NCBI GenBank assembly: GCA_947088865.1
Contig: CAMUHY010000010.1
Coordinates: 54,039 to 118,038, forward strand
Reading direction: 5' to 3'
Length of the DNA: 64,000 nucleotides
DNA from: an uncultured Eubacterium sp.
GTDB lineage: Bacteria; Bacillota; Clostridia; Lachnospirales; Lachnospiraceae
Under the pieces are notes generated by a model, which worked only from the letters and a program-made list of their open reading frames with translations, was not told the origin of the DNA and searched no databases. This document shows positions 4,562 through 34,770 of this stretch, piece after piece; position 1 is the stretch's first letter; the number at the start of each line of letters is the position of its first letter. The position numbers were made by a program, and so were the translations under genes.

Positions 4562-5434
4562 TTATTCCCACCTTGAATAATCTTTATCCCAAAATTCTTC
4601 CATATTCATTCTCTCAATCAGCAGTTCTTTATACTCGACATCACATTTTGAAAGAATCTCTAAGAGATTTCCCATACTTTCACAATATAAATACGTTTTT
4701 CCCCTATCACTGACAGCAATAGGTTCACCTAAAATTTCCTGCAATTTTTCATGATTTGCATTCAATATATTGACTGCCTTGTATAATTCAAATTGTTCAT
4801 CCGTTCTATTTGCAGCTTCAATATGCCCTTCTTTAAGGTATACATAGGAATTGCAATGCTGTGCTGCCTCCTCAAAATGTTCTGCAAGTATTACAATGGT
4901 AACGCCTGATTTTTGAATATCCTTCAAAAACGCATACAATTTCTTAATCCCTTGCTTTGTTAAAAAATTAGAAGGCTCATCTAAAATCAACAAATTGGGA
5001 TTGGTTATAACAGCTCCTATAATTGCTGTAAGCTTATTGCCCTCGTATGTCATATAATTGAGCTTTTCTGTTAAATCAATCCCAAAAAATTCAGCATAAT
5101 CTTTTATTTTATCATTATCTGTAATCTTATATGCCTTCATAATCTGTTCTAAATATTTTTGTGCTGTCGTCTTATTGCCTCTTAAAATAATATCATCTGG
5201 AACAAAACGTATATTTTGACGTTCCTTTGAAGGTATACGCAAAAGTTCTTGTTCTTTATACAAAATCTTTCCATTTGCAGGTCTGCGGATTCCTATAAGC
5301 ATTTCCATTAATTCTGTTTTTCCTGCATCATCAGGACCAAATATGACAAAAAAATCCCCTTGTTGAACATGAAAAGAAATATCCTTTAATGTTACATTAT
5401 TATAATATCCACAAATATCAACATATTCTAACAT
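4562..5434 (-). CDS. ABC transporter ATP-binding protein
   Basis: 290 aa nucleotide-binding subunit that pairs with the permease directly downstream. Walker A is GPDDAGKT (residues 33-40), Walker B is LLILDEP (148-154) and the H-loop His lies in ILAEHFEEA. The signature motif, normally LSGGQ, is replaced by TYEGNK at about 129-134, a divergent version seen in some exporters of the ABC-2 class. The last ~70 residues form an extra C-terminal domain after the ATPase core, as in other ABC-2-type ATPases. Start is the ATG with AGGA nine bases upstream. It lies in the surface operon behind the two secreted proteins. Confidence 0.85.
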   Translation of the reverse strand: MLEYVDICGYYNNVTLKDISFHVQQGDFFVIFGPDDAGKTELMEMLIGIRRPANGKILYKEQELLRIPSKERQNIRFVPDDIILRGNKTTAQKYLEQIMKAYKITDNDKIKDYAEFFGIDLTEKLNYMTYEGNKLTAIIGAVITNPNLLILDEPSNFLTKQGIKKLYAFLKDIQKSGVTIVILAEHFEEAAQHCNSYVYLKEGHIEAANRTDEQFELYKAVNILNANHEKLQEILGEPIAVSDRGKTYLYCESMGNLLEILSKCDVEYKELLIERMNMEEFWDKDYSRWE

Positions 5435-18340: not shown

Positions 18341-19156
18341 TCATGTTTCAATAAGTTTTAACTTGCTAACAGGATGCACTTTTCTTTTTTCTACTGGAGG
18401 AAGCTGCATATAATCACCAAATTTAAAAGTCAAATAACTATCATAATCCTTAATTCCTTGAAATGTTACCCCTTCAAACACCGTATCGGCACTGCATTCA
18501 TACCAGCTTCTATAATATCCATATTCGTTGTTTGGCGCTGGAAACATCAATATGCGCACCATTCTTGTTTTTTTCCTATTATACCTTAAAATCATTCCAT
18601 GATAAAATGCAAATATTTCCTGTTCTGGTATTTTTGCAAGCAATTTAAACCATTTGCGTTTAAAATAATTTTTATCTGCTACCTGCCCAACCTTTGACCA
18701 CAATATTTTTCGCACGCAAAAACATTGAAAATTTTGAACACTTCTAATGATATAATTGTCTGAAACATTATCAAGCGGAAATATATCTATAAATATCCCT
18801 TGTTTATATGGCATGTGTTCTTGAAATTCTCTAAGAAAAAGTGTATTTTTTCTTCTTAATTTTCCATATCCCCAACGATACCCTTTTGTATTTCGATGGT
18901 CTTGAAAATAAAAACGTGTTGTATCAAGTTCTGTCTTACATGCCTTTCTAAATTTTTCATACTCCTCTCTTAACAATGCCACATCGGCATCATCGTCCCA
19001 AGGTATATAACCGCCGTGTCGAATTGCTCCCAATAAAGTGCCTGCTATAATGTTATAATGTATATTGCATTTTTTACATATCCGGTCTACTTCTTGGAGT
19101 AATTCTAATTGGATTAATTGTATATTGCGAAGTGTTGTACTATCTATCTCTAACAT
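18341..19156 (-). CDS. LicD family phosphotransferase
   Basis: 271 aa. The LicD core is IIAGTLLGAIRHGGYIPWDDDADVALLREEY (read as GTLLGAIRHGG followed by PWDDDADV), with the paired Asp expected to bind metal. LicD-fold enzymes move phosphocholine or other phospho-alcohols from a CDP donor to a sugar. It opens the operon that continues with the deoxysugar genes and has AAAGGAGG before its ATG. It is shorter and more divergent than the two other LicD proteins here (19500-20405, 30671-31585). Cytoplasmic, perhaps membrane-associated. The actual phospho-group is unknown. Confidence 0.85.
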   Translation of the reverse strand: MLEIDSTTLRNIQLIQLELLQEVDRICKKCNIHYNIIAGTLLGAIRHGGYIPWDDDADVALLREEYEKFRKACKTELDTTRFYFQDHRNTKGYRWGYGKLRRKNTLFLREFQEHMPYKQGIFIDIFPLDNVSDNYIIRSVQNFQCFCVRKILWSKVGQVADKNYFKRKWFKLLAKIPEQEIFAFYHGMILRYNRKKTRMVRILMFPAPNNEYGYYRSWYECSADTVFEGVTFQGIKDYDSYLTFKFGDYMQLPPVEKRKVHPVSKLKLIET

Positions 19157-19205
19157 AATCCTCCTTTATCCTGCCACAAAACCTTTACTCTTTTATTGTA
19201 AAAAA

Positions 19206-19301
19206 GACTGTCACAAAATGAATTTTCTACAAGTAAGATATCAAATGGTCGATTCATAACACTACATCATATCTTACAGAATTGTTCATTTTATAACAGC
19301 C
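19206..19301. repeat. MITE-like imperfect palindrome
   Basis: The 96-bp segment has terminal inverted repeats GACTGTCACAAAATGAA and (reverse strand of the right end) GGCTGTTATAAAATGAA, 14 of 17 identical. A second pair of arms, GTAAGATAT/ATATCTTAC, lies inside. Its right end, GTTCATTTTATA, recurs in the dyad at 23193-23280. No clear target duplication was seen. Confidence 0.5.
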
Positions 19302-19418
19302 TCTAATAGTCCTTATAACCTTATCTGTAATATAAATATAACCTTTATTATAATTCGCGATTCCATTCGCCACTATTGCAAACTCCATTTTGCAAATATT
19401 CTTATTCTTTTACCATTT

Positions 19419-19445
19419 ATATCGGCATATTCAACAGATACGTTA
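19419..19445 (-). promoter_or_regulatory. Sigma-D-like promoter upstream of the glycan operon
   Basis: Minus strand reads TAAC, 16 bp, CCGATAT, followed by AAA. It lies about 260 bases before the first gene (18341-19156) in an otherwise gene-free stretch of 343 bases. The -10 part is perfect, the -35 part has one mismatch. It would start RNA through the palindrome at 19206-19301. Confidence 0.5.
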
Positions 19446-19499
19446 ATATTTTGTTATTGTCTCTATTTTATATATGGTTTTTAATCTATTTAAGTTATC

Positions 19500-20405
19500 T
19501 TATACTAACGTTTCCCTTATATTATACAATTTTTGTCTTTTATAGAACGGATACTCATGGGCGCTTGTAGATATAACAGGATTCATATAATCCCCATATA
19601 ATACTGTAAGTATGTCATGGTATCCGCATGGCACATTAATTTCCATATCCATAAATTTCATCTTAATAACACTATCATACCATTCTTTCATATAATAAAA
19701 GGATTCTTCTCCTGTCTGTGCTATACGCAAAAATTGTGTCAATCGGTCACTTTCTTCTTCTGTACAAATAGAGGCAATATTATCATATAATTTTATAAGC
19801 TGATTGCGCAATGAATCATTATCTTGTAATGTTACATTACACATCTGTTCAATGTTTTTGATATATCCTTGTAACTGTCCTTGTTCTCGAATCTCGTCCA
19901 ATCTACATGCCACATCATAAACAATTGTATACATAGATTGCTGTAATTCTGCCATATCGTTATCAAAAGGCATATAATCCAAAGGATATATATCTACACC
20001 AACTACATACGGACAATCATAAAATTGTTTTTGTACATACTCTGGCACAGGATATACTGCAAAATTGCCTATACTGCTAAAAGGCTGACGATGGCTGACC
20101 TTTGTATAGCAACTATTTACTGAATAAAAATCTGGAAGTTCTTTTGATAAAATAGGAATTAATTTCATATAATCAGCTCTTTTTAAGCAAATATCAATAT
20201 CATCATCCCATGGAACAAATCCTTTATGCCGAACAGCGCCAAGCAATGTGCCATAATCTGCATAATATGTAATATTATACTTATCACATATGCGTATAAT
20301 CTCAGAAAGCACTTTCATTTGTGCTGCCCAAACCCGCTTCATTTCTGATTCTACTGCAAATCCTTCTATAATCTCCATCTTAAAGAAATCATCATTATAT
20401 TTCAT
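19500..20405 (-). CDS. LicD family phosphotransferase
   Basis: 301 aa with the LicD hallmark YADYGTLLGAVRHKGFVPWDDDIDICLKR (GTLLGAVRHKG then PWDDDIDI) at residues ~48-75. It is clearly paralogous to the LicD at 30671-31585: both begin with a xxEGFxxExxMKxVWAAQ segment and contain CPYVVG/IGLDIYPLDY. An in-frame GTG exists at 20417, but GGAG sits six bases before the ATG at 20405. Members transfer phospho-alcohols from CDP donors to glycans. It stands between the glycan operon and a phosphoesterase gene, with about 100 bases on the upstream side. Confidence 0.85.
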   Translation of the reverse strand: MKYNDDFFKMEIIEGFAVESEMKRVWAAQMKVLSEIIRICDKYNITYYADYGTLLGAVRHKGFVPWDDDIDICLKRADYMKLIPILSKELPDFYSVNSCYTKVSHRQPFSSIGNFAVYPVPEYVQKQFYDCPYVVGVDIYPLDYMPFDNDMAELQQSMYTIVYDVACRLDEIREQGQLQGYIKNIEQMCNVTLQDNDSLRNQLIKLYDNIASICTEEESDRLTQFLRIAQTGEESFYYMKEWYDSVIKMKFMDMEINVPCGYHDILTVLYGDYMNPVISTSAHEYPFYKRQKLYNIRETLV

Positions 20406-20516
20406 CACATTCTCCACTTTTTAACTTATTTTGCGCTTATTTATATAAACTACCCATTATCTAAAACCATTAGGATTGCAATAGCCCTATTTCAATACCT
20501 TAATATTGTTGATTTT

Positions 20517-23294: not shown

Positions 23295-26210
23295 TTATTT
23301 TAATTTCAAGTCATGTCTTCTTTTTTTTACTACATAACCTGCTAAAACGGCTGCACTAAGCACTGCAAAAAGTGCATACATTACTGCATATAAGCCCTTT
23401 GTATCGCCTGTCTGAACACTCGAATTTGAATTTTGAGAGGAATCTGGAGTAACAGGCTTTGGATTATCTGGATTTTGGTCATTAGAATCTGGGTTTTCTG
23501 GATTCTCTGGATTTTCCGGATTCTCTGGAGGAGTTACATCATCAGGATTATTTACAACTTCATCTGTATATTCTACATTCAGTGAATGTATCGTTGTACG
23601 ATTTCCTGATTTGCCAGCACCTGCTGTACCTGTATGCTGTAAACCAAAACCACTGTAATGGTTTGCCTCACCCTCAAAAATATGTTTCAAATGTACCTCA
23701 TGCACAAGCTCTGCTGGTGAAGCAGAATCCTGAGGTGAAACTGTTGTTACGTCTGCTGTCAGCACATTGTCTTTCATTTCAATAACAACTGTACATCCTG
23801 GCAAAAATGCTGTGGATACAACGCCCTCTGTCAATGGTGTTGCTATACCATTTTTGTACTCCATTAATGTAAAAGTACAAGATTTTGCTGCATAATCTGC
23901 CAAAGCTGGATTGCTGATTTCTGGTACTCTGGCTATTCTTAATCCATAACCTGTCATTGTTATGGCATCATATTTAAAGTAAATATCCATAAATTGTTTT
24001 GCACTACCAAAGCCCTGTGCGGCTGTTTTGTGCGGTGACAACTCCACTGTCATTTTCATGTTTTGACGTTTCGTTGTGTCAACATAAACCAAACGCGCTC
24101 CCTGTGTAGTGGTCTGCAAACCATATGTACCCTCTGCACCCGATGCACCTGCCGCATAGGTATATGGCGCTTCATCTGCTGGCTTGTATGCCTTATCTGA
24201 CCAAATGCCGCCTTCTCTATATTCTGCTGGAAGATAGAATCCACCATACCAGTTGCCGCTCTCTAATGAATTTGTCCACTCATAATTATTTTCCTGTGTG
24301 TCATTTACTGCTGGAATGTAAGCTAAATGCTCCAAATCCACATTATAAGAGCTATCCGAATCCTTTGAGACAGCCGCCTTTTCAATCTGCACTGAGACAG
24401 CGCTAAACATGGAACTGCCTGCTTTAGAATTTGATGCTTTTGGCACAACTTCACAGAATATATATTTGCCAACATCATCATTTCTTAATACATATGCAGT
24501 ATATGGCGCTGAATCATCACGGACATATGTTGTCTGGGCAACTAATACCTTATCACTTCCATCTGCCTTTGTAGCTCTGTACCAGTTTACTTGACTGATG
24601 TCTTTTGCACCTTCTGTCAAGCCATTTAATACATACGATACCTTTATCGCACCATCTTTTGGTTCAGAAAGAACAGGTGTGCCTGCCAATGTTGGTGCGT
24701 CCACAATTGCTGGTGTCACATTAAAATACAATACCTTCTGCATTCCGTTTGATGCAGTTGCTGTCAAACAACTCTTCTTTGTTTCTAGTGTCATATTTTT
24801 TGCTGATACAACAACTGTTCCATCTGCCTGTGGTGAAATTTGAAGTGTATCGTCTGATACAGACCACTCTACCTTTTTGTCCGTACCCCCTAAAACAATT
24901 GGTGTTACAACAAGAGAATCTGTCTGATTACCTTCTAATTCTGGCAAAACATCTTTTGTGATACCTGGATAATCAAACTGAATATTCCATGTAGACACAG
25001 GCATACTATTCTTTTGTCCCAATGGGTCCCACTCTTCATAGCCTGCGCCATTAAGCAGATTATATATATTATATTCCCCATTATATTTAAATGCCTGAAG
25101 CTGCTGCTCATTTGGTGTAACAGAAAGTTCTGGACGACTTGGACTGATTACAAAATCTTGTCCATTTAACTTGTTATTATAAACAATTTGTCTTAAATCA
25201 TCGGATAAATTATTCTGTTTCCACTCCATTCCCTGCATATCACCTTTAAAGTTACAGTCAATAAACGCAAATGGTTTGGTGTTTTTACACAAAGTAATTA
25301 TTTTATTATCAGACAAATGCGTTGTAAAATCACATCCAAGATATGCCTGCATATAAAATGAAGCGCCGCCGCAAGGGGTGTTGGAATATAAGTCAAACGT
25401 ACAATTTTCAAAAATAGTAATATAACCTGTTCCTAAAGAGTCATCTGTACATTCCAAATGACAATCTTTTAACAAAGAACGCTTTGGTCTGTCATCCCTT
25501 GAAAACAAATTCAGTCTTGAAATAATATGACAATTTTCAAAAAACCATTCGTCCATATCCTCTATACCTGGAACCTTTGTTACTGCTTGTGCTTGTGTAA
25601 TAGATTCTTGTCTTTTTGGATGATTTTTTGATGGGTCTGCTTTATATACCAAATCCACATTACAATAATTGCCGATTGTAATGTCTTTCGCATGGAATCC
25701 GTCACCTACGCCAATCGTATTAAAGTTGCCGTTTGCGCCTGCATTTTGTCCTCTGTCTGATGCAATAACAACATCTTCTGGATTTCCCGTCATACCAGCT
25801 AATGTAATATAAGGCTGTGGTATGGTAAGACCAATCAAATCATTGCTTGGTCGAACTTCTGGCTTTGTATAATCATCTGTCCAATATACATCGGACGCCA
25901 GATAAATAACTGTTGGATTTTCCTTTGTACCTGGTGTTGCTGCTGCTACTGCATCCTGCAAACTTCTAAATGCAAAGCTGCCAAGCTCATCTGGACTTAA
26001 TCCTGCATCGACATACAATGAATGTTCCGATAGCTGAACGGTCGTTCCTTGATATTCAATGGAAGATAGCACTGCTCTACTCTCGCTCCTTTTTGTTGAC
26101 TCTCCGCTTTGGGCGTTTACAATAACAGAATGAAATGTACTGCTTGTACAAATCAATATTGCCGAAAGCCCTACTGCCGCAAAAGAGCCAAATAATCTTT
26201 TACGTCTCAT
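23295..26210 (-). CDS. Wall-anchored right-handed beta-helix protein (pectinesterase-like)
   Basis: 971 aa. Signal peptide MRRKRLFGSFAAVGLSAILI... with cleavage near residue 34. Residues ~60-400 resemble the pectinesterase/pectate-lyase beta helix (DGFHAKDITIGNYCN, IFENCTFDLYSN, FIDCNFKG), but the pectinesterase active-site motifs (QDTL, DFIFG) are not recognisable. Later Ig-like repeats and a C-terminal domain precede a PEN repeat spacer, then SVQTGDT, a hydrophobic helix and the tail VKKRRHDLKLK, a variant sortase signal. The start at 26210 is set by AGGGAG; the frame runs to 26270. Role in binding or cutting plant cell-wall pectin is inferred. Confidence 0.75.
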   Translation of the reverse strand: MRRKRLFGSFAAVGLSAILICTSSTFHSVIVNAQSGESTKRSESRAVLSSIEYQGTTVQLSEHSLYVDAGLSPDELGSFAFRSLQDAVAAATPGTKENPTVIYLASDVYWTDDYTKPEVRPSNDLIGLTIPQPYITLAGMTGNPEDVVIASDRGQNAGANGNFNTIGVGDGFHAKDITIGNYCNVDLVYKADPSKNHPKRQESITQAQAVTKVPGIEDMDEWFFENCHIISRLNLFSRDDRPKRSLLKDCHLECTDDSLGTGYITIFENCTFDLYSNTPCGGASFYMQAYLGCDFTTHLSDNKIITLCKNTKPFAFIDCNFKGDMQGMEWKQNNLSDDLRQIVYNNKLNGQDFVISPSRPELSVTPNEQQLQAFKYNGEYNIYNLLNGAGYEEWDPLGQKNSMPVSTWNIQFDYPGITKDVLPELEGNQTDSLVVTPIVLGGTDKKVEWSVSDDTLQISPQADGTVVVSAKNMTLETKKSCLTATASNGMQKVLYFNVTPAIVDAPTLAGTPVLSEPKDGAIKVSYVLNGLTEGAKDISQVNWYRATKADGSDKVLVAQTTYVRDDSAPYTAYVLRNDDVGKYIFCEVVPKASNSKAGSSMFSAVSVQIEKAAVSKDSDSSYNVDLEHLAYIPAVNDTQENNYEWTNSLESGNWYGGFYLPAEYREGGIWSDKAYKPADEAPYTYAAGASGAEGTYGLQTTTQGARLVYVDTTKRQNMKMTVELSPHKTAAQGFGSAKQFMDIYFKYDAITMTGYGLRIARVPEISNPALADYAAKSCTFTLMEYKNGIATPLTEGVVSTAFLPGCTVVIEMKDNVLTADVTTVSPQDSASPAELVHEVHLKHIFEGEANHYSGFGLQHTGTAGAGKSGNRTTIHSLNVEYTDEVVNNPDDVTPPENPENPENPENPDSNDQNPDNPKPVTPDSSQNSNSSVQTGDTKGLYAVMYALFAVLSAAVLAGYVVKKRRHDLKLK

Positions 26211-26226
26211 AAAAGTCTCCCTTTCT

Positions 26227-26282
26227 GCGCTGTTTTTAACAGTATTTCTGCCAACAGCGCACAGGCACAAAATAAATACTGT
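26227..26282 (-). promoter_or_regulatory. Possible pseudoknot leader of the beta-helix gene
   Basis: Two interleaved perfect helices can form on the transcript: ACAGUAUUU at 26274-26282 with 26239-26247, and GCGCUGUU at 26253-26260 with 26227-26234. The last strand lies just before the AGGGAG ribosome site. A 14-base part (26255-26268) recurs in the metK leader at 54357-54370 with one mismatch. Confidence 0.45.
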
Positions 26283-26482: not shown

Positions 26483-27403
26483 TTACTTTACAATCTCTAA
26501 ATATCGGTCAAGACGCTCATCCACATACTCTGCAACGAGCAATATCATGTCATCCGCTTTTTTGTCACGATAAAATGCATCAAACGCATCATAATAGCGT
26601 TTACGGTCAGCAAACTTAACATTAATTGCAGGATAGCCATTACGGATAAGTTCAAGATTTAGAATCAAACGACCAGTTCTGCCATTGCCATCGATAAAGG
26701 GATGTATCCCTTCAAAGTCAAGATGAAAACGAGCAATGTGTTCAATTGGATGCATTGTCTTTTTTCGTTCTTCATTTAAGCTAAGCAACTCGTTTAGTTT
26801 TGGTTCTATAAGGTACGGCTGAACAGGCTGTGTATATGCACCGGCAATGGTAACAGGTATACGGCGATAGACGCCTTTATCTTGGGGTCTGTTCATTAGC
26901 ACCAACGAATGAATCGCTTTAATTTCAGTATCTCTTAATTTCGTTTTATTTTGTGCAATATCTTCAATATATAAGAATGCATCTCTGTGACCAACAGCTT
27001 CAAGATGGTCTTTCAATGGTTTGCAATCTATTGTCATTCCCTCAAGTACCATAGCCGTCTCTTTCAACGTAAGAGTATTACCCTCAATAGCATTTGAATT
27101 GTAGGTAAAATCAACCATAAATTCATCACGCAGACGCTGTGTTTCACCAGCAGTAAGCGGTCGCATACCATCTAGTTTTACTTTTTTTACATCTATGGCT
27201 GTTAAAATATCTGCAAATTTGCCACACTTTCTTTTGTTTGGCAATTTGCGTTTATCTAATGGTTTTTCTGTTTCGGCAGGTATCATATATAATTTGCCTT
27301 TTCGGATAACACCGTCAATTTCTCCATTGGCACAAAGCAGCCGAACACGGCGATTAGAAATACCCCATTTTTCTGCTGCCTGTGTAACTGTTAAATATTC
27401 CAT
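26483..27403 (-). CDS. Fic domain protein with N-terminal DNA-binding-like domain
   Basis: 306 aa. Residues ~1-45 look like a MerR/excisionase-type helix-turn-helix (VTQAAEKWGISNRRVRLLCANGEI). The Fic core has HPFIDGNGRTGR near residue 238, the complete HPFx(D/E)GNGRxxR active site for AMP transfer from ATP to a protein hydroxyl. An inhibitory motif, SNAIEGN near residue 100, matches (S/T)xxxE(G/N), so the protein should be self-inhibited. No separate antitoxin gene is next to it. Good AGGAGG site. Known of family: AMPylation of target proteins; the target here is unknown. Confidence 0.9.
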   Translation of the reverse strand: MEYLTVTQAAEKWGISNRRVRLLCANGEIDGVIRKGKLYMIPAETEKPLDKRKLPNKRKCGKFADILTAIDVKKVKLDGMRPLTAGETQRLRDEFMVDFTYNSNAIEGNTLTLKETAMVLEGMTIDCKPLKDHLEAVGHRDAFLYIEDIAQNKTKLRDTEIKAIHSLVLMNRPQDKGVYRRIPVTIAGAYTQPVQPYLIEPKLNELLSLNEERKKTMHPIEHIARFHLDFEGIHPFIDGNGRTGRLILNLELIRNGYPAINVKFADRKRYYDAFDAFYRDKKADDMILLVAEYVDERLDRYLEIVK

Positions 27404-27507: not shown

Positions 27508-29265
27508 CTAATCCATTTTATCCTCTAAATACACCTCAGGCACATTTGTAATAATATCTGTTGCACCATATAATTTATATCGGTCAAGATGTGTGTCTTT
27601 CAGTATTCTTCCATCATTAAAAAATGGTTCTTCCACATTCCATACACGCACAGGCATTTTAGAAAACTCTTTTGGCAGCACATATCCAAGTGAACCAATA
27701 TAAGGGTGAAGTGCGTCTGCACGTACTATCTTGGCATAAAGCATACAATCATCAAGCGTTTCTGCCAATATTCCCGTCTGTGCTGTCGGGTCTATTTTTT
27801 TAATCAAGTCTACCGATTCTGGTAAAAATGAAGAATATACAATATATTTTTCTAAATGATAAGACTTTACCAAATCACAAGTTTTTTGTTCAATTCCTTC
27901 ATATCTTACCACACTTGTTTTTAATTCAATATTTATCAACAATCCATTCTTTTCACAGTATGGTTTTAACAATTCCAAAACTTCTCTCAATGTTGGTATT
28001 GTGGTATATTGCTGGTCTCCTGCCTCAATTTTAAGCGCCTTTAAAGACTCTAAAGAGAAATCTTTTACATTTCCAGTGCCATTTGTAACTCTATCTACCG
28101 TTTCATCATGAATTACAACAATTTCGCCATCACTTGTCAACTGTACATCAAGCTCTATACCTGTTATACCAGATATCTTCGCTGCTGCCTCGAAAGCTTC
28201 TAATGTATTTTCGGGATATCTCATACTGCAGCCTCTATGCGCCCATATATCTGGCATTGGTATATCTTGCTCTTTTTGTTTACACTCTTCATTAGCGGTT
28301 TCCCACAAAGGCGTATTAAATGTCAAAAATTGTTCCATAATCTGCGCAGTTGTTACGCTTTCATTTTGTGATATCATTGGCAATTGATGTGTTGTATTAT
28401 TATTTTTATCCAGTATGGCTACAAGAAAAATTGCCAACTCATATTGAAGCCCTGTTCCCTCATATGGATAATTATATTCTTCTATGCGATTAGCATCCTC
28501 AAACCGTACCTGAAATGTTTTTGTCAGCCACCAAGGCGACTTTGCCAAAATATATCCATTTGTCCCCGTTACAACAAGCTGCCCTTCCGACTTTGCTCCA
28601 AGTCCAGTCTTAACCGTTGCCATAGCGTTATTGTATTCAATAAATGCTTTTGTATATGTGTCAACCCCGCCTATATTTCTCAACGATTTAAAAGAAATAT
28701 TTGTATAGTCTGTACCTAGCAGCTTTAACACTGGCAGCAGACCATATGTCCCAAACTCTAAAAAACTGCCATTATAAATAGGATTTGTATACTCTCTTGT
28801 ATTGGTTGGCGTCAATCTTGTAAAGGTTGCCTCAACATCAACAATCCTGCCTATTTTACCACTTTTTGCAATATTGATAAGCTCATTAAATCCTGGACAG
28901 TATGCCGTTTTTACTGCTTCCATAAGAACTAAATTTTTTCTTGAAGCCAACTCATACAATTCTACCGCTTCAACTTTTGATAACGCCATAGGCTTCTCAC
29001 ACAATACATGTTTACCATTTTCAAGCATCATCTTTGTATAATAATAATGTGTTTCATGTGGTGCAGCTATATATACACAATCAACGACTTCAATCAATTC
29101 CTCAAGCTGGTCTGTATAAATGTCCAATTTATATTTTCGACCAAACTTTTCTGCACTTTCTCCATGTGGATTGTATACACAAACAACTTCTACATCAAGA
29201 CCATCAACGGCTGTTTCTATAAATCTGCTTGCGATTCTTCCTGTTCCAATAATACCTAATCTCAT
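27508..29265 (-). CDS. Gfo/Idh/MocA oxidoreductase fused to glycerophosphodiester phosphodiesterase domain
   Basis: About 585 aa. Residues ~1-330 are a Gfo/Idh/MocA oxidoreductase (MRLGIIGTGRIASRF, then CEKPMALSK with the conserved Lys, MEAVKTAYCPGF). Residues ~345-585 are a GDPD domain: WAHRGCSMRYPENTLEAF, IELDVQLTSDGEIVVIHDETVDR, the metal and catalytic set (HR, E.D, H). The first domain is very similar to the C-terminal domain of the protein encoded upstream. GDPD enzymes cleave glycerophosphodiesters. Start chosen at the ATG before the Rossmann strand; ATG at 29277 or the frame start at 29304 are alternatives. Last gene of the cassette 27508-32635; I infer recycling or trimming of a phospho-polyol. 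Confidence 0.85.
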   Translation of the reverse strand: MRLGIIGTGRIASRFIETAVDGLDVEVVCVYNPHGESAEKFGRKYKLDIYTDQLEELIEVVDCVYIAAPHETHYYYTKMMLENGKHVLCEKPMALSKVEAVELYELASRKNLVLMEAVKTAYCPGFNELINIAKSGKIGRIVDVEATFTRLTPTNTREYTNPIYNGSFLEFGTYGLLPVLKLLGTDYTNISFKSLRNIGGVDTYTKAFIEYNNAMATVKTGLGAKSEGQLVVTGTNGYILAKSPWWLTKTFQVRFEDANRIEEYNYPYEGTGLQYELAIFLVAILDKNNNTTHQLPMISQNESVTTAQIMEQFLTFNTPLWETANEECKQKEQDIPMPDIWAHRGCSMRYPENTLEAFEAAAKISGITGIELDVQLTSDGEIVVIHDETVDRVTNGTGNVKDFSLESLKALKIEAGDQQYTTIPTLREVLELLKPYCEKNGLLINIELKTSVVRYEGIEQKTCDLVKSYHLEKYIVYSSFLPESVDLIKKIDPTAQTGILAETLDDCMLYAKIVRADALHPYIGSLGYVLPKEFSKMPVRVWNVEEPFFNDGRILKDTHLDRYKLYGATDIITNVPEVYLEDKMD

Positions 29266-29330
29266 ACAAATCACCATGCCTTTCCAACTGCCTACAAACG
29301 GCAAACGGCTTGTTTTTTATAATCATAAAC

Positions 29331-30674
29331 TTATTTCATATCTCTTCTTTTCGCCATAAATTTCTCTATAAAATCAGACATAGCAATGGACTCCTGTGCT
29401 GTAAGCTTATAATCTTTTTTGTCTGTTCCATTAATTTTTGATATAAAATCGCCTATTTCATACCTTAAGCCATCACCCTGAAATGTAGGTTCATAATGTT
29501 CTACTTTGTTTGCATCTTCATATCGTACATCAAATTGCCTCATAAGCCACCATGGCGACGGTGCAACAATATATCCTTTTGTTCCTGATACAACCAATTG
29601 CCCCTCTGTCTTAACACCCACTCCTGTCTTTATCGTGGCAAAACTCTTTGGATATTTTATATTAACTTTTGTGTAGATATCTAATCCCTTTTCATTTGTA
29701 ATACTATCTATACGCATATCAATATAATCTGTCCCCAACAATTTAATAATAGGAAGCAGCGTGCTTGGACCAAATTCAAGAAATGCACCTCCATAAAGTT
29801 CATCGGTCATCTCTCTTGAATCAGGGTCTGCCAATCTTGTAAAACAAGCTTCAACATCGCAAATTTCACCAATCTTTCCACTCTTAGCCACATTGATAAG
29901 CTGCTGAAATCCTGGACAATATGCTGCTTTAATTGCTTCCATAAGCACTACGCCTTTTTTGCTTGCCTGCTCATAAAGTTCAACGCTCTCAACTCTTGTA
30001 AAGGCTAATGGCTTTTCACTCAACACGTGTTTTTTATTATAAATTGCCTTTTTAGCATACATATAATGTGTTTCATTAGGTGATGCAATATAAACAGCAT
30101 CGACATACTTAAGAAATTCATCATAATCTTCTGTAAACACTTTTATTTCATGTTTTTTCTGAAACTTCTCTGCACTTTTTTTATCTGGATTATAAGCGCA
30201 CTCAATAGAAAGTCCACTGACATATTTTGACTCTGCTATAAATCGAGGCGCAATTCTGCCTGTTCCAATTATCCCAACACGGACAATATCAAATTTACTG
30301 GAACGAAGCATTGTTGATGATACATTTGGTGTCCTGTCTAAATAAACAACATCACAATAGGCTTTCAGATAATCAAAAGCACCTTCCCAATCAGAACCAA
30401 GTGTAAATATATCAACACCATATTTTTGTATATCTTCTATCTTTTGTCCATCATGGTCTTCCACGATAATCATATCAGCAAAGCCTGTCTTTTTTACATT
30501 TTCAATTCTATCCATAATAGGGTCAATAACATTAACCTTTCCTCTGGATTCGTCAAAATGTTCTGTTGTAACGCCTACTATCAAATAATCACCAAGCTGT
30601 TTTGCTCTCTTTAATAGATTATAATGTCCTTGATGAAATAAGTCATATGTTCCGTATGTTATTACTTTTTTCAT
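29331..30674 (-). CDS. TagD-like cytidylyltransferase fused to Gfo/Idh/MocA oxidoreductase
   Basis: 447 aa. Residues ~1-130 are close to TagD, CTP:glycerol-3-phosphate cytidylyltransferase: VITYGTYDLFHQGHYNLL with HxGH, GSDWEGAFDYL, and YLDRTPNVSST, the RTxGxST-like motif. Residues ~133-447 are a Gfo/Idh/MocA oxidoreductase (VGIIGTGRIAPRF, SEKPLAFTR, EAIKAAYCPGF). The protein should join a phosphorylated polyol to CMP, and the second domain may make that polyol by reduction. Its ATG overlaps the stop of the LicD gene (ATGA), so the two are coupled. CDP-glycerol is the default guess; other polyols are possible. Confidence 0.85.
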   Translation of the reverse strand: MKKVITYGTYDLFHQGHYNLLKRAKQLGDYLIVGVTTEHFDESRGKVNVIDPIMDRIENVKKTGFADMIIVEDHDGQKIEDIQKYGVDIFTLGSDWEGAFDYLKAYCDVVYLDRTPNVSSTMLRSSKFDIVRVGIIGTGRIAPRFIAESKYVSGLSIECAYNPDKKSAEKFQKKHEIKVFTEDYDEFLKYVDAVYIASPNETHYMYAKKAIYNKKHVLSEKPLAFTRVESVELYEQASKKGVVLMEAIKAAYCPGFQQLINVAKSGKIGEICDVEACFTRLADPDSREMTDELYGGAFLEFGPSTLLPIIKLLGTDYIDMRIDSITNEKGLDIYTKVNIKYPKSFATIKTGVGVKTEGQLVVSGTKGYIVAPSPWWLMRQFDVRYEDANKVEHYEPTFQGDGLRYEIGDFISKINGTDKKDYKLTAQESIAMSDFIEKFMAKRRDMK

Positions 30675-31585
30675 GTCAATTTTAACTCCTCTAACACTAC
30701 TTGAAGCTGTTTTCTATAAAATGGATATTGATGAGAACCCCCTCCCATAATTGGGGTCATATAATCTTCTCCATATTTTTGTATCAAAATTTTTTCAGCG
30801 CCTACGGGTATTGGTATTTCTGTATATTCAAACGGAACATATACTGCACTGTCATAATATTCCTTTGGATAGACGTCGTCAGGTCTTGCCCCTGCATGGT
30901 CTGGCATAAGTGCAATATGTGTTGCTTCCTCTTCTGTATACATCATACACAATCGCTCACTGATTTTAAATAATTGTCGGTCATATGGAATATCATCTCT
31001 TATAGGTACATTGCACATATCTAGTATTTCTTTTGTCATATTTCTTTTTTCTTCCTGCGTTGCATTTTCCATACTATTTAAGTTGCCAGCAGTGATGCCT
31101 GCTATTCGTATCATTTCGCATTGAAGTTCATCTTCTTCTTTTGTCGGTGCAACATAATCCAAAGGAAATATATCTAAACCTATTACATAAGGGCATCCAT
31201 GAAACTTTTTTAAATGTTCTGGGTCATAATTTACACTTCGTCCATTAATAATCCTGCTAAGCATATGATTCCAGCCATCATCCGAATGCAAATTAACAAT
31301 TTCATATTCGCCTTTTAACTCTTCTTTTGCAATCTGACAAAAACGTATATAATCCTTTCTTTTCATTGTTATATCCATATCGTCATCCCAAGGAACAAAC
31401 CCTTTATGTCTGACTGCTCCAAGCAATGTCCCCCAATCTGCAAAATATTGTATATTATGCTTTTTACATAAATTATCTACAACATTTAATACTTCTAATT
31501 GGGCTGCCCATACTTTTTTCATCATTGTCTCTATATAAAAACCTTCTCGTATCTCACCCTTTAAAAAACCCTCTGGTATATTCAT
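30671..31585 (-). CDS. LicD family phosphotransferase
   Basis: 304 aa with YFADWGTLLGAVRHKG and PWDDDMDITMKR, the LicD core and metal-binding acids, and CPYVIGLDIFPLDY. Closest relative in the window is 19500-20405. The frame extends to a TTG at 31606, but ATG at 31585 follows AAAGGG by eleven bases; the short version aligns better with the paralogue. It ends in an ATGA overlap with the cytidylyltransferase gene. This pairing fits LicD taking a phospho-alcohol from the CDP donor made next door and placing it on a glycan. Human FKTN and FKRP, of the same fold, use CDP-ribitol. Confidence 0.85.
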   Translation of the reverse strand: MNIPEGFLKGEIREGFYIETMMKKVWAAQLEVLNVVDNLCKKHNIQYFADWGTLLGAVRHKGFVPWDDDMDITMKRKDYIRFCQIAKEELKGEYEIVNLHSDDGWNHMLSRIINGRSVNYDPEHLKKFHGCPYVIGLDIFPLDYVAPTKEEDELQCEMIRIAGITAGNLNSMENATQEEKRNMTKEILDMCNVPIRDDIPYDRQLFKISERLCMMYTEEEATHIALMPDHAGARPDDVYPKEYYDSAVYVPFEYTEIPIPVGAEKILIQKYGEDYMTPIMGGGSHQYPFYRKQLQVVLEELKLT

Positions 31586-31606
31586 CACTCCACAAACCCT
31601 TTCCAA

Positions 31607-32635
31607 CTATTTTATTGTCATTTCTTGTTCAATATAATTTTCTAATAAACGTTCTGTCATGCCCGACTTAGAAAGTTTATATAATTTCATCTGTTTTGGT
31701 ATTAAATATTCATATATCGATTTATCATAATCAAAAACTTCACTTTTTACAACATTAAATAACTCTTTATATAATTCAAAACTAATATGTTGTTCTCTGC
31801 ATTTTAAAAAGTATAGTGTCTCATAAAAATATGTATGAAGAAAATACAACTTAATCTCTTCATAAAATCGTTGAAAATAATCTTGCTTTTTTACAAATTC
31901 CCAAGTCAATAATTGTACTTTTGCATGTTGTTTCACGGTATTTTCATCTTTCATATCTTTTCTCATAGTACCGCTCATATTTTGACGATACATATAAAAT
32001 GCATCTTCCATTGTCACTATTTTGTGTACTTTAAACAACAATGGATATACAAACAATGGTTCTTCATAAATCACATGCTCTGCAAATAAAACGCCTGCTT
32101 CTTTAACAAGAGAGGTCTTATATAACTTATTCCAACAGCCATAATCCACTTTTTCCTCAATCAGTATTGATTTACGCTCTGCATCATTATTTATTTCTAA
32201 AATCTCATCTTTTACAGGCTTTTTACAAAATACTTTTACTTCATTATTATAACAATAAAAATAGTTAAATTGCAATATATCCGCATTATATTTTTTAGCT
32301 TGATGATAGGTTTTTTCACACATCGAAATATCAATCCAATCATCTGAATCAACAAATGCTATATATTCACCAGATGCATATTTTAACCCTTCATTTCTTG
32401 CTCCGCCTTGTCTTTTATTCTCTGGTAAATCAATAATAATAACGGATTCTGGATATACCTTTTCAATTTGCTGCAACATATTCCATGTTTGTCCATTATC
32501 AGTAGAGGCATCATTGACAAATATAAGCTCTAAATGTTCAATACCTATTGTCTGATTTGCTAATGATAAAAAACATTGCGGCAGCCATTGAACTGCATTA
32601 TAACAAGGTACGATTACACTAATTTTCTTTGACAT
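31607..32635 (-). CDS. Glycosyltransferase family 2
   Basis: 342 aa. GT-A fold start KISVIVPCYNAVQWL, FVNDASTDNG, and the metal-binding FVDSDDWI near residue 95; TagF/WcaA-like C-terminal extension of ~150 residues without a recognised domain. It leads the cassette with LicD and the two fusion proteins and follows the flagellin terminator. AGGAA seven bases before the ATG. Cytoplasmic or membrane-peripheral. It should add the sugar that later carries the phospho-group, perhaps on flagellin or on a wall glycan; this is inference from position only. Confidence 0.85.
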   Translation of the reverse strand: MSKKISVIVPCYNAVQWLPQCFLSLANQTIGIEHLELIFVNDASTDNGQTWNMLQQIEKVYPESVIIIDLPENKRQGGARNEGLKYASGEYIAFVDSDDWIDISMCEKTYHQAKKYNADILQFNYFYCYNNEVKVFCKKPVKDEILEINNDAERKSILIEEKVDYGCWNKLYKTSLVKEAGVLFAEHVIYEEPLFVYPLLFKVHKIVTMEDAFYMYRQNMSGTMRKDMKDENTVKQHAKVQLLTWEFVKKQDYFQRFYEEIKLYFLHTYFYETLYFLKCREQHISFELYKELFNVVKSEVFDYDKSIYEYLIPKQMKLYKLSKSGMTERLLENYIEQEMTIK

Positions 32636-32750: not shown

Positions 32751-33563
32751 TTACTGAAGGAGTGAAAGAACACCTTGTGTCTGCTGATTAGCTTGAGTAA
32801 GCATTGATTGACCTGCTTGAGCAAGAATATTGTTCTTGCTGTATTCAACCATCTCCTCTGCCATATCTGTATCACGAATACGTGACTCAGCAGCTGATGT
32901 ATTCTCACTTGATGTATCAAGGTTGTTAATTGTATGCTCAAGTCTGTTCTGAATAGCACCCAATTTAGAACGCTGTTTTGATACCTTCTCAATAGCTGCC
33001 TGAACAGCTTTCATTGCAGCACCAGCAATTGAGAATGAACTTACCTTCAATCCACTTACTCCCAATGAAGCTGCATCCATATTACTGATAGAAATTGAAA
33101 TTCCTTGTCCTGAAATAGCACCAACTTGAAGATTCTTGCCAATAAATGTACCATCTAACAAATTCATTGTATTGAACTGTGTTGTTGACTGGATTCTGTT
33201 AATCTCGCTTGTAAGCTGATTAATCTCTTGTTGAATAGCATCTCTATCTGTTGAAGTATTTGTATCGTTAGCTGCCTGTGTAGCAAGCTCATTCATTCTT
33301 TGCAAAATTGCATGTGCTTCATTCAAAGCACCTTCAGCTACCTGAATAAGAGAAATACCATCTTGTGCATTAGCTGATGCTCTATCAAGACCTCTAATCT
33401 GGCTTCTCATCTTCTCTGAAATAGCAAGACCTGCGGCATCATCTGCTGCTCTGTTAATCTTAAATCCTGATGACAACTTCTCTGTTGCTCCTGCTTGAGC
33501 ATCTGTTATTATACCTAATTGCCTATTTGTATTCATTGCTGACAAATTGTGTTGTACTACCAT
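32751..33563 (-). CDS. hag: Flagellin
   Basis: 270 aa, a short flagellin consisting almost only of the D0 and D1 regions. N-terminus VVQHNLSAMNTNRQLG and C-terminus RIRDTDMAEEMVEYSKNNILAQAG...VLSLLQ are the secretion and polymerisation parts. NRAADDAAGLAISEKMR is highly conserved. It is about as long as, and very similar to, the neighbour at 33916-34728. It has its own sigma-D promoter (33650-33676), AAGGAGG, and terminator, so it is a single-gene unit. Exported by the flagellar type III system; FliS and FliW partners are encoded nearby. Confidence 0.95.
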   Translation of the reverse strand: MVVQHNLSAMNTNRQLGIITDAQAGATEKLSSGFKINRAADDAAGLAISEKMRSQIRGLDRASANAQDGISLIQVAEGALNEAHAILQRMNELATQAANDTNTSTDRDAIQQEINQLTSEINRIQSTTQFNTMNLLDGTFIGKNLQVGAISGQGISISISNMDAASLGVSGLKVSSFSIAGAAMKAVQAAIEKVSKQRSKLGAIQNRLEHTINNLDTSSENTSAAESRIRDTDMAEEMVEYSKNNILAQAGQSMLTQANQQTQGVLSLLQ

Positions 33564-33649
33564 AATTTTTTTCCTCCTTGAAAATCATCCACATAAAATA
33601 TTAGGCGATATCATCATCCATAATTTTTATTACCACCTACTTAAGCTAT

Positions 33650-33676
33650 ATATCGGAGCGTTTTTTTTAATTCTTA
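33650..33676 (-). promoter_or_regulatory. Sigma-D promoter of the distal flagellin gene
   Basis: TAAG, 16 bp, CCGATAT on the minus strand. The leader of about 80 bases contains two GGATGAT segments and AAGGAGG; GGA-type sites are what CsrA binds, as in the hag leader of Bacillus. The rest of the 352-base gap holds the terminator of the other flagellin gene and AT-rich sequence. Confidence 0.85.
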
Positions 33677-33867
33677 ACCTTTTTTTCATTTTTTTATTAA
33701 AATAATTCACCTTTTATGTAAAAATATAAAATTTTATTCCGCAGACTTTATATTTTACAAGTTATATATTCTCTTTCATAGGTATTGCACTATCACCTCA
33801 CCGTTATGATAACACACCTACAAGAAAAAGTACAGCAAATACAATATTTTCTAAAATAAATTTACAG

Positions 33868-33897
33868 AAAAAAGTTCCGCCAAAGCGGAACCTCTTT
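33868..33897 (-). terminator. Intrinsic terminator of the proximal flagellin gene
   Basis: Stem GTTCCGC / GCGGAAC with a four-base loop, then TTTTTT on the minus strand, directly after the flagellin stop. Confidence 0.9.
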
Positions 33898-33915
33898 TCC
33901 CTATAGTAGTATTGA

Positions 33916-34728
33916 TTAACCGAGAAGTGAAAGAACGCCTTGGTTAGACTGATTAGCCTGTGCAAGCATTGACTGTCCAGCCTGTGCAAGAATGTTGTTC
34001 TTGCTGTATTCAACCATCTCATCAGCCATATCTGTATCACGAATACGTGACTCAGCAGCCTGTGTATTCTCACTAGCTGTATCAAGGTTGTTAATTGTAT
34101 GCTCAAGTCTGTTCTGAAGAGCACCCAACTTAGAACGCTGTGTAGATACTAATTCAATAGCTGCCTGAACAGCTTTCATTGCAGCACCAGCACTAGTAAA
34201 TGAGCTTACACTCAAACCACTTACGCCCAATGATGTTGCATCCATATTGCTGATAGAAATACCAATCTTCTGACCTGAAAGCAAACCAACCTGAAGATTC
34301 TTGCTTGTAAAGCTACCATCTAACAAGTTCATTGTATTGAACTGTGTTGTAGATTGGATTCTGTTGATTTCGCTTGTAAGCTGATTAATTTCTTGTTGGA
34401 TAGCTGTTCTATCAGTTGAAGTATTCGTATCGTTAGCTGCTTGTGTAGCAAGCTCGTTCATTCTTTGTAAGATTGCATGAGTCTCATTCAAAGCACCTTC
34501 AGCTACTTGAATAAGAGAGATACCATTCTGTGCATTGTCAGATGCCTTATTAAGACCTCTGATTGCATATCTCATCTTCTCTGAAATTGAAAGACCTGCT
34601 GCATCATCACCTGCACGATTTACTCTGTAACCTGATGATAACTTCTCTGTTGCCTTAGCCTGGCTTCCTTGTACCATACCAAGCTGTCTACTTGTGTTCA
34701 TTGCTGTTAGATTATGTTGTACTACCAT
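33916..34728 (-). CDS. hag: Flagellin
   Basis: 270 aa with the same layout as its neighbour: VVQHNLTAMNTSRQLGM at the start, RAGDDAAGLSISEKMRYAIRG, and NNILAQAGQSMLAQANQ near the end. Differences from the other copy are spread over the central region (residues ~140-190). The frame runs to 34770, but AAGGAGG eight bases before the ATG at 34728 sets the start and makes both flagellins the same length. Own sigma-D promoter. Both flagellins may form one mixed filament. Ser/Thr residues in the short middle part could carry the glycans made by nearby genes. Confidence 0.95.
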   Translation of the reverse strand: MVVQHNLTAMNTSRQLGMVQGSQAKATEKLSSGYRVNRAGDDAAGLSISEKMRYAIRGLNKASDNAQNGISLIQVAEGALNETHAILQRMNELATQAANDTNTSTDRTAIQQEINQLTSEINRIQSTTQFNTMNLLDGSFTSKNLQVGLLSGQKIGISISNMDATSLGVSGLSVSSFTSAGAAMKAVQAAIELVSTQRSKLGALQNRLEHTINNLDTASENTQAAESRIRDTDMADEMVEYSKNNILAQAGQSMLAQANQSNQGVLSLLG

Positions 34729-34754
34729 ATGTTTTTCCTCCTTGAAAATTATTC

Positions 34755-34770
34755 GTGGCTTCCCTTCCAC
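34755..34770 (-). promoter_or_regulatory. Small hairpin with GGA loop in flagellin leader, possible CsrA site
   Basis: GTGG-AAGGGAAG-CCAC on the minus strand, 11 bases before AAGGAGG of the flagellin gene. A GGA/GGGA in a short hairpin loop near the ribosome site is typical of CsrA-controlled leaders. CsrA and its antagonist FliW are encoded in this cluster. Confidence 0.45.

Follow-up and report, generated by a model that had tools for sequence, protein, structure and literature searches.

Can an oxidoreductase that is fused to a cytidylyltransferase still supply the alcohol that its partner activates? The question is raised by a four-gene cassette in a stretch of 64,000 nucleotides (the window) from contig CAMUHY010000010.1 of an uncultured Eubacterium sp. 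Here, a TagD-like cytidylyltransferase domain (CTD) is joined to an oxidoreductase of the Gfo/Idh/MocA family (CTD-Gfo), and a second Gfo domain is joined to a glycerophosphodiester phosphodiesterase (GDPD) domain (Gfo-GDPD). Alcohols linked to cytidine diphosphate (CDP) feed phosphodiester decorations of surface glycans, including teichoic acids, flagellin and animal dystroglycan. Comparison across genomes indicates that the oxidoreductase half of CTD-Gfo loses its predicted catalytic residues in some clades, while the cytidylyltransferase half stays conserved.

The four open reading frames (ORFs) lie where a preliminary description of the window, made from the letters alone, had placed them, on one strand and with an ATGA overlap, and Pfam agrees with their assignment:

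31607–32635, minus strand: GT2 glycosyltransferase, 342 amino acids (PF00535, E 3e-32)
30671–31606, minus strand: LicD-family phosphotransferase (PF04991, 126.5 bits against a cut-off of 22.6)
30671–30674, minus strand: ATGA overlap of the LicD stop and the CTD-Gfo start, read from the sequence
29331–30674, minus strand: CTD-Gfo fusion, 447 amino acids, with the cytidylyltransferase at residues 1–126 and Gfo at residues 131–447 (Pfam and homologs)
30297–30674, minus strand: CTD, with HxGH and RTxxxSS intact (invariant columns, TagD comparison)
30012–30014, minus strand: codon of CTD-Gfo K221, the lysine of the Gfo EKP motif, kept (alignment)
29763–29765, minus strand: codon of CTD-Gfo S304, which replaces the predicted catalytic Tyr, gone in the window clade (alignment)
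27508–29265, minus strand: Gfo-GDPD fusion, 585 amino acids from the likely ATG at 29265 (Pfam, alignment, sequence)
28993–28995, minus strand: codon of Gfo-GDPD K104 (598-residue numbering), the EKP lysine, intact (alignment)
28744–28746, minus strand: codon of Gfo-GDPD Y187 (598-residue numbering), the predicted catalytic Tyr, intact (alignment)
27535–28239, minus strand: GDPD domain (PF03009, 114.9 bits; closest solved chain 2pz0)
32751–34770, minus strand: two flagellin genes directly upstream of the cassette (ORFs named flagellin from sequence)

Above the curated Pfam cut-offs, CTD-Gfo matches PF01467 at residues 5–124 and PF01408 with PF22725 at residues 131–369. In the longer Gfo-GDPD frame, 27508–29304 (from TTG 29304), PF01408 and PF22725 cover residues 15–252 and PF03009 covers residues 356–590. 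Both fusions belong to the Gfo/Idh/MocA family, with PF01408 scores of 89.2 and 94.7 bits against a cut-off of 24, and their Gfo domains share 54% identity, which bears out the description of the second as a close paralog of the first. Gfo-GDPD probably starts at ATG 29265 rather than TTG 29304, because several homologs begin there, and the LicD start is probably ATG 31585.

Recurrence of the two fusions

When the fused architectures were searched across genomes, as the preliminary description had proposed, both recurred, and we therefore rule out that they are products of frameshift or misassembly. Among sampled genomes, a CTD-Gfo of full or almost full length is present in 14 of 150 from the same family and in 9 of 398 from the phylum (the window's own genome being counted in each); of these 9 genomes, 6 come from 5 other families. 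It was found in 15 named loci from genome contigs, one of them truncated by the contig end, and the gene is carried by G008, which has the same genus code as the window genome, and by Lactobacillus rogosae ATCC 27753, where it lies near flagellin. Gfo-GDPD fusions occur at 13 loci besides the window. This fusion looks like the result of a joining of neighboring genes, because L040 has CTD-Gfo, Gfo and GDPD in that order as three genes and in L042 CTD-Gfo is followed by GDPD. A tree rooted at its midpoint places the CTD-Gfo rows in one supported group of 65, inside which a single stand-alone Gfo (L127) falls, and the GfoB rows, fused and single, are intermingled.

Two further loci are of note. 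A CTD-Gfo fragment (L102) lies on a contig titled Alistipes sp., which may be mis-binned, and L163 (86–1561) encodes a protein of 491 amino acids in which a cytidylyltransferase-like domain is fused to what appears by eye to be a PdxA-type protein.

Divergence of the cytidylyltransferase and oxidoreductase halves

The catalytic motifs that the CTD shares with TagD, HxGH and RTxxxS(S/T), do not vary in any of the 60 aligned fusions, and the closest solved structures by sequence are those of the glycerol-3-phosphate cytidylyltransferases TagD/TarD (1coz, 2b7l). However, the domain scores only 106.7 bits on the NCBIfam model for TagD (TIGR01518), below its cut-off of 165.4, and other positions that are conserved in TagD have changed. 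In 13 single-domain TagDs from the same family, position 63 is Arg (10), Lys (2) or Ile (1), and Trp74, Asp93 and Thr119 are present in 13, 12 and 13 sequences, respectively. CTD-Gfo does not keep this conservation at R63, W74 and D93: it has Gly at position 63 in 61 of the 62 rows with a residue there, Trp at position 74 in 0 of 63, and Ser at both 93 and 119 (64/64 each). We take R63, W74, D93 and T119 to bear on the acceptor or its binding. The portion of PMC13228409 at hand concerns an enzyme of another fold and is of no help on the roles of these residues. On this comparison, the CTD is a separate subfamily rather than a typical TagD, and its acceptor is probably other than sn-glycerol-3-phosphate. 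The preliminary description had named TagD activity on glycerol-3-phosphate as background; because the CTD is a separate subfamily, with the family threshold missed, conserved positions shifted and other gene neighbors, that activity cannot be safely transferred.

In the oxidoreductase domains, we take the catalytic pair to be the Lys of the EKP motif and the Tyr or His of the GGxxxxxGxY motif. Of 71 CTD-Gfo rows, 39 keep the predicted pair whole (36 with Tyr, 3 with His). All 8 rows of the window clade have Ser in place of Tyr and retain Lys, a related clade of 7 rows has Asn in place of Tyr, and a third clade has lost both Lys and Tyr (17/17). The Rossmann motif of the third clade keeps its third Gly in 1 of 17 rows and its Arg in none of the 17, and its mean identity is 78% in the CTD and 49% in Gfo, the corresponding values for the intact group being 74% and 57%. 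On the tree, impairment of Gfo in CTD-Gfo needs 2 changes. Gfo-GDPD has the Tyr in 14 of 14 cases and the Lys in 12 of 14; Lys is kept in 11 of 11 where the same locus or genome holds a CTD-Gfo, and in 1 of 3 genomes in which no CTD-Gfo was detected (G112, G139, G252), being lost in G112 and G139. The window genome itself combines a CTD-Gfo that has Lys and lacks Tyr with a Gfo-GDPD that has both. Reduction by the CTD-linked Gfo, as first proposed, is therefore unlikely in this genome, since the predicted catalytic Tyr is absent, and the GDPD-linked Gfo could perform it instead. CTD-Gfo illustrates clearly how a domain can shed catalytic residues yet remain fused.

The GDPD domain of the second fusion carries the HR..E.D..HD pattern in addition to its PF03009 match; R357, E384, D386 and H399 are invariant in 13 of 13 aligned sequences and H356 is present in 12 of 13. 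These are presumably the functional residues of a glycerophosphodiester phosphodiesterase. The N-terminus of Gfo-GDPD runs directly into the Rossmann motif with no signal peptide, as judged by eye, so the protein should act in the cytosol. A PF03009 search of its own genome (3.29 Mb in 48 contigs, the window lying on contig C10) returned a single GDPD, which is this fusion.

Gene neighborhoods and the proposed pathway

The neighborhoods of 71 CTD-Gfo loci were compared with those of 20 TagD control loci, with neighbor families called by BLAST against one or a few representatives each. LicD lies within 3 genes at 38 of 71 CTD-Gfo loci and 1 of 20 controls, which supports the LicD-linked CDP-alcohol logic of the preliminary description. 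GDPD (within 6 genes) was found at 28 CTD-Gfo loci, an aminotransferase (within 4 genes) at 18 and flagellin (within 6 genes) at 17, each against 0 of 20 controls. The flagellin neighborhood seen in the window thus recurs, with flagellin homologs at the same position in L089, L091, L092 and L094. Homologs of PF04464 lie within 6 genes at 15 of 71 CTD-Gfo loci and 16 of 20 controls, and the window genome has no PF04464 match; it has four LicD genes, three of them within the window. Fisher values for these neighbors range from 2.4e-6 to 0.019; they ignore relatedness, and the CTD-Gfo loci are not a random sample because many were retrieved as query matches.

The partner genes differ with the state of the oxidoreductase. 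GDPD lies within 6 genes at 22 of 39 intact-Gfo loci, at 6 of the 8 window-clade loci and at none of the 24 other impaired loci, and an aminotransferase lies within 4 genes at 1/39, 0/8 and 17/24 of these, respectively. Window-clade loci that lack a nearby GDPD are L090, on a contig of 4.3 kb, and L132, whose genome holds a Gfo-GDPD on another contig (L111). GDPD neighbors go with an intact Gfo or with Gfo-GDPD and aminotransferases with an impaired Gfo, a pattern that is suggestive and not a proof. The aminotransferase representatives are HisC-like and of class V, the latter nearest to the solved chain 3f0h and resembling PhnW/AepZ with scores under the cut-off.

Our preferred reading, held tentatively, is that the cassette is a module for CDP-alcohol supply and LicD transfer that serves flagellin or a surface glycan, with the redox function moved to the GDPD fusion. 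From the architecture, conservation, motif states and genome context observed, we infer its catalytic steps, substrate and acceptor as follows. GT2 would add a sugar. In CTD-Gfo, the CTD half would couple cytidine triphosphate (CTP) to a phospho-alcohol, probably not sn-glycerol-3-phosphate, to give a CDP-alcohol, from which LicD would pass the phospho-alcohol onto the sugar with release of cytidine monophosphate. The Gfo domain fused to GDPD, with its Lys/Tyr pair, would interconvert hydroxyl and ketone on the alcohol or its precursor, and GDPD would most likely act on a phosphodiester in the cytosol, releasing from it an alcohol, or the phosphate of one, that enters the same pool. The other Gfo, in CTD-Gfo, would have no redox role, or no longer any, and its main use would lie in structure or binding. 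By analogy with known parallels, either reduction or activation may come first.

A broader proposal, conceivable but doubtful, is that CTD-Gfo represents a class of CDP-alcohol suppliers, as yet undescribed, whose fused oxidoreductase is turning non-catalytic. The chemistry would then depend on the partner gene: a GDPD, together with an intact Gfo, would give a polyol, and a pyridoxal phosphate-dependent aminotransferase, together with an impaired Gfo, an amino-alcohol. If so, the CDP-activated alcohols placed on flagellin or surface glycans would differ between related loci. Several observations weigh against our preferred reading. The flagellin link is one of adjacency alone, and at 54 of 71 loci no flagellin gene lies within 6 genes. 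GDPD is missing within 6 genes at 17 of 39 intact-Gfo loci, and an aminotransferase is missing within 4 genes at 7 of the 24 impaired loci that fall outside the window clade. Two intact-Gfo loci have an aminotransferase homolog, L126 at position -1 and L041 at +5, the latter beyond the counted distance. The absence of GDPD holds at the level of the neighborhood, since the genomes of two Asn-clade members, G008 and G305, hold one GDPD each at another place, of membrane type by eye. Loss of Tyr is no proof of inactivity. Impairment arose only about twice, so that the association with partner genes comprises few independent events; for the same reason, an independent-pairs test that relates the partner gene to the condition of Gfo has no power to reach significance.

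The preliminary description saw in CTD-Gfo a bifunctional CDP-polyol synthase that reduces a keto-sugar phosphate and then activates it, with GDPD trimming the product. The 39 of 71 loci that keep both Lys and Tyr/His are consistent with such an enzyme, and Bcs1 is a known bifunctional precedent in the excerpt of PMC10299916 consulted, but the window protein lacks the Tyr, 17 of 71 relatives lack the Lys as well, and a trimming enzyme would presumably serve no purpose in the cytosol; we regard this version as unlikely. Activation might instead precede reduction, the CTD making a CDP-ketose or CDP-aldehyde whose CDP-linked carbonyl is reduced by the GDPD-linked Gfo. This would fit the division of activation and intact reductase between two proteins in the window, and the conversion of CDP-6-fructose to CDP-6-glucitol in Campylobacter HS:5 sets a precedent (PMC10918830, in part), but one from other families, PF01128 and PF01370, and binding of CDP-linked substrates by the proteins studied here is hypothetical, so that we give this order of events little weight. 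That CTD-Gfo is a plain TagD, producing CDP-glycerol and carrying Gfo as an inert passenger, seems quite improbable to us: its nearest solved structures are those of TagD/TarD, but the TIGR01518 score, the shifted positions and the differing gene neighbors argue otherwise.

Two other chemistries were considered and set aside. At nine loci with a class V aminotransferase, no phosphoenolpyruvate (PEP) mutase of a phosphonate pathway was seen by eye in the first 75 residues of the genes listed there, no profile search having been made. Inositol chemistry was brought up by an inositol dehydrogenase among weak Gfo matches and by TIM barrels in relatives; the scores were far below cut-offs, and it was left as an idea. 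TIM-barrel genes lie between CTD-Gfo and Gfo-GDPD in L091 and L092, and the window genome has two homologs of the L091 protein, at C10:46672–47607 (42% identity) and C10:47997–48848 (23%). On the same contig, about 35 kb from the cassette (L056 10667–15357), two TIM-barrel-like genes adjoin an ORF of 787 amino acids whose C-terminus holds a further cytidylyltransferase, a distant one.

At 25 of 71 loci, counting shorter relatives, a member of a family of proteins of about 850 amino acids is encoded near CTD-Gfo (examples are L040 10940–13489, L042 4763–7312 and L043 5724–8264). The three members scanned gave no credible Pfam match and no solved relative; by eye the family is perhaps a distant TagF-like transferase, with an hhalign probability of only 27% (E 7e-4). 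Another recruitment of GDPD is found in L120 (6731–9025), where a GDPD fused to a calcineurin-like phosphoesterase adjoins CTD-Gfo; L112 4067–6298 clusters with it.

Elsewhere in the window, two more LicD genes (18341–20417), followed downstream by genes for an NDP-hexose (nucleoside diphosphate-hexose) 2,3-dehydratase, a Gfo oxidoreductase, an epimerase, a GT4, an FkbM methyltransferase and a GT2, form a second surface-glycan cluster. A Fic-domain protein is encoded downstream of the cassette (26483–27403), its N-terminal HTH_17 match of 26.9 bits lying just below the cut-off of 27. A protein of 991 amino acids (23295–26270) has no Pfam match and a hydrophobic and basic C-terminal tail, by eye wall- or membrane-anchored. 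Further away are an ABC-transporter ATPase (4562–5434), several neighbors of which have no Pfam match, and a GT1 gene (95–1564).

Comparison with known CDP-alcohol systems

Titles and abstract openings among the open-access matches listed, a scope outside which most subscription journals fall, contain no description of a CTD-Gfo fusion, which is not to say that the search shows none to have been published. The comparison suggests that the cassette is a variant on known systems for CDP-alcohol supply. Gtp1-3 of S. pneumoniae are CDP-2-glycerol enzymes; the term CDP-2-glycerol is absent from the papers listed, and some pneumococcal genome papers among them name gtp1-3.

Bcs1 is composed of the IspD and SDR families and, to go by the title of a 2001 study by Zolli, reportedly reduces first. 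Unlike it, the cassette uses TagD-like and Gfo domains, with Gfo impaired in the window clade, and has a GDPD-fused paralog in addition; neither fusion has a match to PF01128 or PF01370 at E 0.001. The likeness is that in Bcs1 of Haemophilus influenzae type b, too, a reductase and a cytidylyltransferase are joined in one protein, which supplies CDP-ribitol (PMC10299916, in the excerpt consulted).

The CDP-6-glucitol pathway of Campylobacter HS:5 activates first and then reduces (PMC10918830, from the part at hand). Like the cassette, it pairs a cytidylyltransferase with an NAD(P) oxidoreductase for a CDP-alditol, but as separate proteins of PF01128 and PF01370. Gene clusters of this type lie near CTD-Gfo at 9 loci for PF01128 (or 8, L097 being a duplicate) and at 8 for PF01370, one member of each having been scanned with Pfam, and are perhaps a second route. 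PntC-type phosphonate cytidylyltransferases resemble CTD-Gfo in that nucleotidyl activation is fused to precursor-making enzymes (PMC6697681, in part); they differ from it by the PEP mutase that was not seen at the nine loci inspected by eye.

A recurrent fused enzyme in gut Bacillota makes flagellar or surface decoration directly testable, and a parallel is found in the Type A flagellin glycan of Clostridioides difficile (CD0240–CD0244), for which a proposed model has a nucleotidyltransferase and a phosphotransferase build a phospho-decorated flagellin (PMC10714395, in the portion consulted). The nucleotidyltransferase there comes from a different family, the compound proposed for it is an amino acid, and LicD, Gfo and GDPD are not named in that portion. 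As in our cassette, however, genes beside flagellar genes provide a glycosyltransferase, a nucleotidyltransferase (proposed to make CDP-threonine) and a phosphotransferase, which is TagF-like.

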